From an uncultured Verrucomicrobia subdivision 3 bacterium (GTDB lineage: Bacteria > Verrucomicrobiota > Verrucomicrobiia > Limisphaerales > UBA11358), in the NCBI GenBank assembly GCA_903875465.1, contig CAIQWB010000146.1:1-52400 (forward strand): a DNA stretch of 52,400 nt, given 5' to 3'. Below, one piece after another: positions 138-4,150 of the stretch. The first letter of the stretch is position 1; every line of letters begins with the position of its first letter. The notes under the pieces were generated by a model. It worked only from the letters and a program-made list of their open reading frames with translations. It had not been told where the DNA came from and did no database searches. Position numbers and translations under genes: made by a program.

Positions 138-2660
138 TTATTGAATCGAGATGCGGTAGAAACGATGGGCCAGTCCGGTGGTGGAATCCGGCACCGTGGC
201 GGCCGAACCCGTGCCGCTCACGGAACTCAGGGTGGTCCAGGTCGTATCCGTCAAGTTGTTTTTGTACTGCACCGTATAGGTGAAGCCGCTCTGCGTGGGG
301 AAGGTCACCTGGCAACCCCCGCTGGTCACGTGGGCGGTCACCGACGGTGCGGTCGGCGCGCTGTTCGCGTAGAAATACACGTTGTCGAAGTAGAAGTTAC
401 CCTGCTGCACGCCGGGGCCGCTGATGTCCCCATTGTCAATCCACAGCAACTGGCTGAGGTGAGTCAGGTCTATCGCAGGATTCAACGCGGTGAAGGCCGT
501 GAGCGGAATGTCCAGGCTCACCCAATGATTGCTGGTGATCACCCCAGTGCCGGCAGAATAAATCACTTCAGGAGCCGCGCCATTAAGGGTGCTGACCAGC
601 TTGATGGCCAGTTGGTTGGCCGTGGTCCACACGTCAACATGCAAGCCCACGCAGCCGCTGGCATCCACGTCCGTGCCGCCGCTATAATCAGGGTTGAGCT
701 CCACGCCGAAGTATTGGAGTCCCAGATAGGATTTAACCAAACGACCACTGGTGACCGTAAAATCACCGGAACCGGAGGCCGCGCCCCACGGATAGAAGTT
801 GATGGCCGGAGCATTGGAATAGGTGCCGCTGCTGTTCCACAGCGAGATCACCTTGGACTGCGGCCGGGTGGGAGTGGGCGCGTTGGTGGTCGGATAATTC
901 GGGGGCGGCGGGGTCACTACCACGTTGCTCGAAATCAGGACCTGGCCCAAGCTGGCCACCGTGGCCGGATTGGCATCCGGTCCCACCGTTTCAAAACCAT
1001 ATTGCACATGGTCACCAGCGCCCGCAACCCAGTTCAGGGTAAACCGGCTTCCGCCCACAAGCGGCAGGTTGGTGCCCACAAAGGAGGAGTAATTGGGGGC
1101 AAAGTCTTTGATGAAGACAGTGGAGGTATACGGGGCCACCAGGGTGTTGCTAATGCAATAGCCAGTGAAGGTGATGGACTGGCCGGCCAGCCCGTCGTTT
1201 TGCACATAGAAACTGGCGTCACAAATCTTGTTGCCCGAACCATCCGGATTCGCCCAATAAGCGTCGCTGGCATTGTAGGTATTGACGTTGGGAGCGAGGG
1301 TGACCACCGGTCCATTGAAGGTGGCCGGCAAGGCACCAGTGCCCCAACCACTGCCAAATTGATACGCGCCGCCCTTGCTCGGGAGGTCGGAGACATTCAT
1401 GTAACCCTGCCAGGCTTGGGCGGGGTCCACATAAACCGTGGAGGCAAACTGATTGTAGAAGTAAATGTTGTCGAAGTAAAAGACGCCGTTGCGCACACCG
1501 GAGCCGGCAATGTCCCCATTGTCCACCCACAAAAGCTGGCTGATATGGGTCAAATCCAAGTTGGGCGCCAGGGCAGTGAAAGCCGCGACGGGAATGTCCA
1601 GACTCACCCAATGGTTGCTGGTGATCACACCGCTGCTGGCAGGATAAATCAATTCCGGGGCCGCGCCGTTGTCGGTGCTGACCAGTTTGATGGCCAGTTG
1701 GTCGGCCGTCGTCCAGACATCCAAGTGCAAGGTGTTGAAACCGCTCACGTCCTCGTCAGCTCCGCCCAAATAATCAGAATCGGCTTCCACCCCGGCGTAA
1801 TTCAAGCCGATGTAGGATTTGAGCACACTGCCCAATTTATTGGTAAAATCACCCAAACTCCGGGCAGAACTCCAATTGGCGTAAAAATTGACATTGGGGG
1901 CATTAACATATTTGCCACTGCTGTTGTAGAGGGCCAGCACATTGGTGGCTGGCTGGCTGGGCGTGGGAGCATTGACCGTCGGGGCCGGGGTGGCCGGTGG
2001 GGCCACCACCACCAAATTGGTGCTGGCACCGAAATACACGTTGTCGATGTAGTAATCGGCGGGCGAGTCTTCCCCGGCATTATTAATGATCCAGCCCAAT
2101 TGTTGGATGCTGGTCAGATTCAAGGCCGGAGCAGAGGATACAAACTGCTTCAAAGGCAAATCCAGCCCAATCCAGCCATTGTTGGTGATCACGCCACTGG
2201 CGGCCGTGTAGGTAATATCGGCACTCACGCCCGCTGTGTCCACGATGCGGACGGCAAAACTGTCGCCATTCGGCGTAAAGACATCCAGGTGCAAATTGGT
2301 GCAACCCGCGACATTCTGCACATGGCCTTCAAAACCCACCCCGGTGAAGAGCAGGCCTTGATACCCCTTGACCACGTTGGTTGTGCCATCAATGGTGAAA
2401 TCCCCAAACGAACTCCACTGCCCGCTCCACCAGACTTCGTAAAAATTGACCCCGGGGATGTTGGTGTAGGTGGCGGTGCTGTTATAAAGTGAAATGACAT
2501 GGCCCGCCGGGAGGGTCGGGGTATTGGCAGGAATGAGGGGCTGTGCCTGGCCGGTCGCGGCTCCCAGCAGTAGCGCACCCAGGGCCATGGGCAGGGTGAT
2601 GGCCGAAGCCCATCGGGCCAGCCCGGCCGCGCGCGTGTTGTTTAACGTAGTTTTGTTCAT
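138..2660 (-). CDS. Secreted protein with three repeated carbohydrate-binding-like modules
   Basis: An 840-residue protein with a signal peptide (about 1-40, ending GQAQ). Three homologous modules of about 160 residues lie at roughly 54-211, 241-402 and 604-764. Each begins with a VISLYNS/VLALYNS/VISLWNS-type strand, contains an LHxDVxT segment and ends with YxDNVYF. A different region, about 410-580 (AWQGYMNVSDLP...), sits between modules 2 and 3. The last 60 residues (YTVQYKNNLTDTTW...HRFYRISIQ) match the C-terminal module of other secreted proteins in the window. No catalytic residues were recognised. Similar VISxFSD-type modules accompany glycoside hydrolases in Bacteroidetes and Verrucomicrobia, so a carbohydrate-binding role is inferred. 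The start is the ATG at 2660, directly before the signal peptide. Confidence 0.75.
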   Translation of the reverse strand: MNKTTLNNTRAAGLARWASAITLPMALGALLLGAATGQAQPLIPANTPTLPAGHVISLYNSTATYTNIPGVNFYEVWWSGQWSSFGDFTIDGTTNVVKGYQGLLFTGVGFEGHVQNVAGCTNLHLDVFTPNGDSFAVRIVDTAGVSADITYTAASGVITNNGWIGLDLPLKQFVSSAPALNLTSIQQLGWIINNAGEDSPADYYIDNVYFGASTNLVVVAPPATPAPTVNAPTPSQPATNVLALYNSSGKYVNAPNVNFYANWSSARSLGDFTNKLGSVLKSYIGLNYAGVEADSDYLGGADEDVSGFNTLHLDVWTTADQLAIKLVSTDNGAAPELIYPASSGVITSNHWVSLDIPVAAFTALAPNLDLTHISQLLWVDNGDIAGSGVRNGVFYFDNIYFYNQFASTVYVDPAQAWQGYMNVSDLPSKGGAYQFGSGWGTGALPATFNGPVVTLAPNVNTYNASDAYWANPDGSGNKICDASFYVQNDGLAGQSITFTGYCISNTLVAPYTSTVFIKDFAPNYSSFVGTNLPLVGGSRFTLNWVAGAGDHVQYGFETVGPDANPATVASLGQVLISSNVVVTPPPPNYPTTNAPTPTRPQSKVISLWNSSGTYSNAPAINFYPWGAASGSGDFTVTSGRLVKSYLGLQYFGVELNPDYSGGTDVDASGCVGLHVDVWTTANQLAIKLVSTLNGAAPEVIYSAGTGVITSNHWVSLDIPLTAFTALNPAIDLTHLSQLLWIDNGDISGPGVQQGNFYFDNVYFYANSAPTAPSVTAHVTSGGCQVTFPTQSGFTYTVQYKNNLTDTTWTTLSSVSGTGSAATVPDSTTGLAHRFYRISIQ

Positions 2661-2827
2661 TGGCTCAGTTCAGGTTGCGTTGTCGTTTTGGTTGTTGTAA
2701 CCATTACCGACGGCGACGCTGCCACAGCAGGCGTTAACGTCAGATGGTGATTTCGACCTTACTATAATCGTTTCCGGCCAAAGGGCTAGCTCCCAAAGTG
2801 GATAGGATTTCATGCCCAAACCGAATA
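2661..2827. other. Intergenic region upstream of the triple-module protein gene
   Basis: About 167 bases between the minus-strand start at 2660 and the left target duplication of the small inserted element. It should hold the promoter of the minus-strand gene. I see no clear hairpin or operator, and none of the repeated motifs described elsewhere in the window. Confidence 0.4.
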
Positions 2828-2835
2828 AATTGGAA

Positions 2836-2860
2836 CGGAAGTATAAAGATAACGCAAGGC
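2836..2860 (+). repeat. Left terminal inverted repeat of the 634-bp element
   Basis: A 25-bp sequence matching the complement of 3445-3469 with a single A/G difference at its eighth base. It directly abuts the AATTGGAA duplication. Confidence 0.9.
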
Positions 2861-2895
2861 TTGCTTGACGCGGAGACCGCTGGCTGTTACCAACG

Positions 2896-3132
2896 GTGAT
2901 TATGAACGAACCTGAGCACCGCGATTTGGCAGCGCAAATACAAGCACTTACAGCGAATCTTAAAAATTGTGAAACACTCACGCCAAATGAGAAAACACAC
3001 ATGGATGCGCTTGAAATAGAGCGTGTGCGTTTGACGCATAGTGCTTTTGGGCCGGGCTACAAAAAAAGGCCACCAAGCGGAAACCCAGAAAGCGATGAAG
3101 AGCCAACGGACCTCAATAAAGGCTTCTTCTGA
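2896..3132 (+). CDS. Small orphan protein carried by the 634-bp element (cargo 1)
   Basis: A 78-residue ORF with a GTG start at 2896; an in-frame ATG at 2902 is an alternative. The N-terminal half (about 5-45) is predicted helical (DLAAQIQALTANLKNCE). The C-terminal third is charged and proline-rich (KKRPPSGNPESDEEP). There is no signal peptide or membrane segment, and I recognise no family. Its composition is more AT-rich than the neighbouring genes, in line with arrival on the element. There is no convincing ribosome-binding site, as for most genes here. That it is translated is uncertain; the second ORF 42 bp downstream in the same direction supports a two-gene cargo. Confidence 0.45.
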   Translation: MIMNEPEHRDLAAQIQALTANLKNCETLTPNEKTHMDALEIERVRLTHSAFGPGYKKRPPSGNPESDEEPTDLNKGFF

Positions 3133-3174
3133 CCACCAAGCAATTGCTTTTAAACTCCTAATTATCAACGACAT

Positions 3175-3429
3175 ATGAGCAATAATTTTGAACCGACAAT
3201 TGATCCTAAAAACCTTTCAGACCGGGCGTTGATTCTGTTTCTGCTGCATGAGGTAACAGCGTTGCGGGGTCAGGTTTTGGTTCTGGATAACATTCTTCAC
3301 GGAAGGGTGCCGGGCGACAGTGCCGCAGCACAAAGATTGTTTGACCACTGCCATAAGGAGGTTTTTGCCGCACTTGCTGAAAACTTGAAACTTGCCGACA
3401 TGCAACGGCAAGACCCTGCATCAAATTAA
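3175..3429 (+). CDS. Small orphan protein carried by the 634-bp element (cargo 2)
   Basis: An 84-residue ORF with an ATG at 3175, ending 15 bp before the right terminal repeat. It is predicted largely helical (SDRALILFLLHEVTALRGQV, then HCHKEVFAALAENLK), with no signal peptide and no catalytic motif that I recognise. It follows cargo 1 by 42 bp on the same strand, so the two may be cotranscribed. A two-gene cargo could be a toxin-antitoxin or regulatory pair, but nothing in the residues shows this. The function is unknown. Confidence 0.5.
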   Translation: MSNNFEPTIDPKNLSDRALILFLLHEVTALRGQVLVLDNILHGRVPGDSAAAQRLFDHCHKEVFAALAENLKLADMQRQDPASN

Positions 3430-3444
3430 GCCCGCCACATAGCC

Positions 3445-3469
3445 GCCTTGCGTTATCTTTACACTTCCG
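3445..3469 (-). repeat. Right terminal inverted repeat of the 634-bp element
   Basis: The inverted partner of 2836-2860 (24/25 identity). It directly abuts the right AATTGGAA duplication at 3470-3477. Confidence 0.9.
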
Positions 3470-3523
3470 AATTGGAATTTTGAGGCTTGAAGCGGCCTGC
3501 CAGCGGGGAGTTTTTGGGACGAG

Positions 3524-4150
3524 CTATTTCCCCGACTTGAATTTCAAGGCCGCTTCCGTCCGGGAATGGACGTGCAATTTTTGGTAGATGTGCTTGAGAT
3601 GAAAGCGTACTGCTGCCACGGTTACTGAAAGCCGGTCGCAAATTTCCTTGTTGGACAACCCATGCACCACCAATTCCAGCACCTCGCGCTCGCGCGGCGT
3701 CAGTTCCTCGACGACCGTGCTGACAGTGGCTTGCTCGCGAAAATAACCGATCACCTTCCGGGCGATCTCACCACTCATGGCCCCACCTCCCAATTGAACC
3801 TCGTTCATGGCGTGCAGGACCTCTTCCGGGGTGGAACGTTTGAGCAAATACCCCGAAGCCCCGGCCCGTAACGCGCGGAAAATCCGGTCCGGATCTTCAT
3901 AAACCGTCACCATGATTGCCTTCACTGAGGGCAGCAGCTCTTTCAAACGCGCCACACAATCCACTCCCGACATGTTCGGCAGCTGGATGTCCATCAAGAC
4001 CAGTTCAGGTTCCAGCTTGGGCAGGACCTTTAAGGCCTCCTCGGCGGAGGAACAGGTCCCCACGCAGCGGAAGTCGGGCGAGAGATTGACAATGGTCTCC
4101 AATCCCTCACGGGTGGTTTTGTTATCTTCAACGATGGCAACTTTGGTCAT
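3524..4150 (-). CDS. NarL/FixJ-type response regulator (pair 1)
   Basis: A 208-residue DNA-binding response regulator. The receiver domain (1-120) has the acidic cluster ED at 8-9, phosphoacceptor D54 (VLMDIQLP), T82 and K104 (YLLKRS). The C-terminal LuxR/GerE helix-turn-helix (about 149-203) begins LTPREREVLELVVHGLSNKEI. Its ATG overlaps the stop of the upstream kinase gene by 4 bp (ATGA, 4147-4150), so the two are almost certainly cotranslated and form a cognate pair. The targets are unknown. The nearest minus-strand gene downstream is the triple-module secreted protein, beyond the inserted element. Confidence 0.93.
   Translation of the reverse strand: MTKVAIVEDNKTTREGLETIVNLSPDFRCVGTCSSAEEALKVLPKLEPELVLMDIQLPNMSGVDCVARLKELLPSVKAIMVTVYEDPDRIFRALRAGASGYLLKRSTPEEVLHAMNEVQLGGGAMSGEIARKVIGYFREQATVSTVVEELTPREREVLELVVHGLSNKEICDRLSVTVAAVRFHLKHIYQKLHVHSRTEAALKFKSGK

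Follow-up and report, generated by a model that had tools for sequence, protein, structure and literature searches.

The locus considered here raises the question of what kind of mobile element would have the terminal inverted repeats (TIRs) and target duplication of an insertion sequence (IS), and yet enclose two small open reading frames (ORFs) of its own where the transposase would sit. The element measures 634 bp (positions 2836-3469), or 650 bp counting both duplications, and is flanked by the stop of a response-regulator gene on one side and by the start of an 840-aa gene on the other, in a window of 52,400 nucleotides, i.e. the whole stretch of DNA that was analysed. Its features and neighbours are as follows.

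138-2660, minus strand: 840-aa gene, from the ORF listing
2828-2835: left copy of the target duplication, AATTGGAA, read directly and equal to 3470-3477
2836-2860, plus strand: left TIR, CGGAAGTATAAAGATAACGCAAGGC, 24/25 complementary to the right TIR
2896-3132, plus strand: ORF1, 78 aa from a GTG or 76 aa from the ATG at 2902, from the ORF listing
3175-3429, plus strand: ORF2, 84 aa, from the ORF listing
3445-3469, minus strand: right TIR, reading CGGAAGTGTAAAGATAACGCAAGGC on that strand, 24/25 to the left TIR
3470-3477: right copy of the target duplication, AATTGGAA, read directly
3524-4150, minus strand: response-regulator gene, the name being a reading of its sequence

The first-pass annotation had described 25-bp TIRs directly bounded by a perfect 8-bp duplication, and both were confirmed on re-reading: the TIRs are complementary at 24 of their 25 positions, and the duplication is identical at all 8 positions and abuts the TIRs without a gap. 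By arithmetic, such a repeat would arise by chance within 3 kb at any place in the window with a probability of about 1e-5, to be multiplied by 4^-8 for the duplication; the probability of a chance origin is negligible. Most of the element is taken up by the two plus-strand ORFs, and its interior, described earlier as AT-rich, is so relative to the window (47.6% GC for the element vs 61.0%) and not in absolute terms. The cassette lies upstream of the 840-aa gene, with 175 bp (window 2661-2835) between it and the start of that gene, and it may come between the gene and transcription that reads through from the response-regulator operon.

The element is an insertion relative to G012, a genome of the same genus. 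When the flanking response-regulator/kinase DNA was used as a query against 49 genomes of the genus, 46 gave some match, and the far flank was then compared at the seven loci of other genomes that matched best. Of these, G012:C79 (L026) alone matched the 840-aa gene and the DNA between the genes as well; the sole other far-flank match was a 26-bp intergenic one in G016. G012 has the upstream gene, then the intergenic stretch and then the response regulator, with the element missing, and since the same neighbouring genes occur there without it, the element of the window must have been inserted. This element-free site is independent support for the reality of the element. The intergenic DNA of G012 is only about 68% identical to that of the window, because of which the exact target base is unreadable there; a single AATTGGAA, which the first-pass annotation had proposed to look for at an empty site, was not seen.

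A route to the family of the element was provided by the transposase genes of its relatives. IS1595 transposases (PF12762) were found in 24 and PF01609 transposases in 40 of the 49 genus genomes, while IS66 transposase loci were taken from the window's own genome only. We scanned 63 loci for paired TIRs: 2 with IS66, 30 from each of the larger IS1595 and PF01609 sets, and the copy in the window itself (L057). Excluding L057, the two best scores among the 62 loci were 35/48 each, both at IS1595 loci; the next two were 31 (one IS1595 and one PF01609 locus, both without a duplication), and the best reversed-motif control reached 30. Locus L065/L168 (G035:C303, 639-1755) holds an autonomous relative, a 1117-bp IS with the ends CGGGAGTA[G/T]GTAGATAACGCAAAT, an 8/8 duplication AAAAATCC and an intact 335-aa transposase, which matches PF12762 (E = 8.6e-33), the IS1595 zinc ribbon PF12760 (4.2e-10) and NCBIfam transpos_IS1595 (1.2e-45). 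A 721-bp degraded relative of this IS is present in G016 (L081/L176). According to passages of PMC8101967, IS1595 members usually leave 8-bp duplications, and an N-terminal zinc finger is usual for the family outside the IS1016 group.

The G035 IS and the window element share the 8-bp duplication and ends of the form CGG[A/G]AGT----AGATAACGCAA in the same register, but they differ in that the transposase fills most of the former, in 3-4 of 22 end positions, and in their interiors, which are unrelated. The first 22 bases of the window's left end agree at 19/22 with the IS1595/MITE end CGGGAGTATGTAGATAACGCAA, and the right end agrees at 18/22 (three and four consensus mismatches, respectively); the register is exact, the same outermost base adjoining the 8-bp duplication. 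Because of these 3 and 4 differences in 22 positions, the exact partner IS of the window element was not seen; of the full-length IS with the same ends and 8-bp duplications that the first-pass annotation proposed to look for, G035 has a form with similar, not identical, ends.

The ends belong to a family. From the IS1595 loci and the window we built the consensus CGGRAGTnnnnAGATAACGCAA, which, with at most one mismatch, is matched 42 times across 18 of 331 genomes, two of these matches being the window's own by construction; the reversed control gave 3. Outside the window's genome this leaves 40 places in 17 of 330 related genomes, against the same 3 control matches. Counting as paired those elements with both ends at least 20/22 to the family end, we found 16 further ones, 13 of them 140-174 bp long and the others 721, 1117 and 1452 bp. 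Ten of the 16 have an 8/8 duplication and one has 7/8; the remaining five have 1-5/8, a counterpoint to the IS1595 reading. The 13 short elements, among which 8 have an 8/8 duplication, are MITEs found in G008, G037, G041, G069, G264, G303 and others; like the window element they are non-autonomous, with similar ends and mostly 8-bp duplications, and unlike it they have about a quarter of its length and unrelated interiors. In a comparison with the other elements at a blastn limit of E 0.01, the window element matched just one MITE, over 22 bp at its ends.

Pieces of the G035 IS were also found in five more species (G006, G016, G026, G037 and G039). One-ended matches in G037 (C9 and C166), G039 (three), G006:C86 and G026:C373 run into DNA of this IS for 96-567 bp, as expected for a multi-copy IS that breaks draft assemblies. 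The two G037 ends bear the reverse-complementary 8-mers AAACATTG and CAATGTTT, and are probably the ends of one IS copy. At five other one-ended loci (G002, G009:C21, G027, G026:C184 and G006:C115) neither a partner end nor IS DNA beyond the end was found, the longest match being 39 bp at G006:C115. Ends of intermediate sequence occur in G027 (CGGAAGTAGGTAGATAACGCAAGAC) and G006 (CGGAAGTATGTAGCTAACGCAAATA). The G027 end stands alone on the reverse strand of G027:C157 (L153, end at 2141) and has CGGAAGT and GCAAG in common with the window's; no partner was found within 2.1 kb, and it might belong to another cassette or a broken copy. The 1452-bp element, G006:C92:38366-39817 (L149:1567-3018), is a family MITE with the duplication CGTTGAGA and a nested insertion of PF01609 type: each of its ends aligns to one half of the G006:C87 MITE, and the arms overlap by 9 bp, which suggests that the nested insertion made a 9-bp target duplication.

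Searches for the exact ends gave a different picture. The window element is present as one copy in its own assembly, where no TIR besides its two was found at up to 3 mismatches, and where the family pattern at 3 mismatches gave 2 more single matches against 4 for the control. In a class sample of 384 genomes, 3 TIR matches were found outside the window (G327, G455 and G533, at three mismatches), which we attribute to chance, all being single and the reversed control having given 4. The core of 20 specified TIR bases had no exact match in the genome_contigs set. Six viral contigs match a 17-mer of the exact TIR; these matches were also rejected as chance, as in the four of the six that were included in an inverted-repeat scan (L019, L021, L023 and L024; L020 and L022 were left out) the match had no partner among the five longest inverted-repeat pairs, and three of the four carry identical repeats and thus represent one lineage. 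The family consensus had no exact match in the viral contigs, and Rfam gave no match. A DNA search with the whole element in 97 genomes did not find a full relative. Candidates discarded were G038 (a gapped 47-column match near the ORF2 start, where tblastn of both ORFs was blank), G070 (a single 30-bp match) and G004 and G015, in which the match is a short inverted repeat common to both. This repeat, GCACTTGCTGAACACTTGAAACTTG / CTGAAAACTTGAAACTTG, shared by two species of the same genus (G004:C388, L005; G015:C12, L006), is possibly another repeat family. The lack of any other TIR copy, named in the first-pass annotation as an argument against its own reading, accordingly holds for the exact ends and not for the family consensus.

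The element of the window is best described as a derivative and not an IS, since the IS1595 transposase is absent from its 634 bp, and we think it very probable that it is a non-autonomous IS1595-family cassette of the mobile insertion cassette (MIC) type, which would have been moved in trans. It has the 8-bp duplication and TIRs similar, not identical, to those of a PF12762 IS; it has IS ends on both sides and no transposase, as a MIC does; and its length and single copy in the genome speak against a MITE, an element that is short, non-coding and usually multi-copy, though its interior may be non-coding. The earlier claim of a transposable element without a transposase has in this way been sustained by related ends, 8-bp duplications, an autonomous IS and an element-free site in G012.

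MIC231 of Bacillus cereus is of the IS231 (IS4-family) type; unlike it, the window element has ends of IS1595 type and two orphan genes, and its mobilisation in trans is our reading of its structure. The MIC concept is set out in passages of PMC3129680 and PMC6542083, and a MIC carrying qnrS2 in a passage of PMC5444012. As far as these passages go, MICs such as MIC231 share with the window element the IS-type ends, the passenger gene or genes (putative ones in the window element) and the lack of a transposase, and in both cases activation is expected from a cognate IS. The window element fits this concept and adds one more member to a kind already known. Among the literature matches listed for IS1595, MIC, MITE and Verrucomicrobia no title deals with this IS1595 TIR family, which does not prove that there is none.

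A rival view of the cargo is that the element is a plain enlarged MITE whose interior is non-coding filler and whose ORFs are both chance frames; it concerns the cargo only, is compatible with the IS1595 assignment, and we consider it unlikely, though not far-fetched. MITEs with ends of this type do occur in relatives, but the 13 short ones are only 140-174 bp long. Single ORFs of this length are frequent by chance, as 475 of 2000 dinucleotide shuffles contain some ATG ORF of at least 84 aa, but two tandem ATG ORFs of such size on one strand were seen in only 11 of 2000. This test does not choose the strand, because the antisense strand of the element meets the same criterion (95 and 71 aa); host codon usage is not in favour of the ORF frames either, the antisense frames scoring slightly better. 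On the other side, ORF2 has a GC content of 0.61 at first and 0.34 at second codon positions, a periodicity as strong as which appeared in 0 of 5000 base shuffles; that of ORF1 was reached by 95 of 5000. By this composition ORF2 looks coding and ORF1 weakly so, and the earlier claim of two unknown genes is upheld to that degree. Third-position GC is 0.43-0.47 in the ORFs vs 0.70-0.76 in four neighbouring genes, in keeping with a foreign origin.

Further in favour of the enlarged MITE, neither ORF has a credible relative in the searches made. Pfam and NCBIfam gave no match at the curated cut-off and PHROGs and PADLOC none of value, the best profile match in the four collections being Pfam DUF6399 at E = 0.047, far below the cut-off. 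No credible relative of the ORFs was found in plasmids, viral contigs or 293 genomes of the order, nor of ORF2 alone in phages, 387 genomes of the phylum or the genome_contigs set. Matches of ORF2 in G233, G269 and G297 (E 0.004-0.007 over 42-52 residues, inside frames of 218-640 aa) were rejected, and would all fail the limit of E 0.001 of the phylum search; so was a match of ORF1 in viral contig L118, which covers 30 codons within another, longer frame, with an E value relative to the candidates only. A single-sequence model of ORF2 has two long helices (mean pLDDT 73), for which the best match of a fold search against the PDB was a meaningless E 2.8; ORF1, modelled without an alignment, has a pair of shorter helices plus a loose tail (pLDDT 72).

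Returning to the IS1595 cassette, one may ask whether it is instead a decayed autonomous IS1595 that lost its transposase by deletion and kept its accessory genes, the remnant of a 'transporter IS'. A passage of PMC3129680, with the IS1595 paper as its reference, tells of IS copies that carry passenger genes, and degraded IS copies exist, e.g. the 721-bp one in G016; but the 634 bp hold no transposase trace (the best tblastn E is 0.91, and blastn at E 0.01 did not align them with the G035 IS) and the element retains intact ends and an intact duplication, and we regard this origin as improbable. That the element belongs to another family with 8-bp duplications (IS66, or IS4/IS5 type), with ends that merely look similar, is very improbable: IS66 and PF01609 transposases are present in its own genome, where IS1595 was not found, and L114, a PF01609 locus, reached 31 where the best control reached 30, but L114 lacks a matching duplication, the ends of the IS66 copy, as read in the DNA after the stop codon, differ, and IS66 was rejected as donor because they do not fit, and the sole long paired element with PF01609 matches between ends of the family, G006:C92, is a MITE with a nested insertion. 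IS66 transposase fragments lie at contig ends of the window's own genome (G000:C96:1-396 and G000:C152:11-334), where IS66 may be a multi-copy element that broke the assembly.

For the IS1595 cassette we propose that two IS1595-type ends came to enclose two small genes in the place of a transposase, that the transposase of an autonomous IS with similar ends would have recognised both ends in trans, and that the cassette would have been inserted between the response-regulator gene and the next gene, with duplication of 8 bp of target. This transposase may have been present earlier or may reside in unassembled sequence: PF12762 had no match in the window's own assembly, a draft of 153 contigs and 96% completeness, which does not settle its absence. 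A second cassette with ORF1 and ORF2 is not known among the genomes searched, so that this cargo is presumed mobile on account of its structure.

We infer that the ORFs are expressed passengers, and as cargo they are most likely either passive or marginally useful. The earlier suggestion of an addiction module or a regulator found nothing to support it in Pfam, NCBIfam, PHROGs or PADLOC, and searches of Pfam, NCBIfam and PADLOC linked neither ORF to any known family of toxins or antitoxins, a result that concerns described types only. It would be a long shot if the two orphan genes formed a module under selection for its benefit to the cassette, which might, for example, recruit or regulate an IS1595 transposase from elsewhere or stabilise the insertion; the cassette would then be a 634-bp IS parasite with assistance genes of its own.

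In itself, the cassette of the window is an ordinary mobile-element finding. It has brought to light a family that comprises one cassette, MITEs and an autonomous IS and is represented in 18 of the 331 genomes searched, the window's among them, and it suggests that in this bacterial lineage IS1595-type ends can carry a cassette of small orphan genes. Such cassettes offer small genes of unknown origin a way into genomes.
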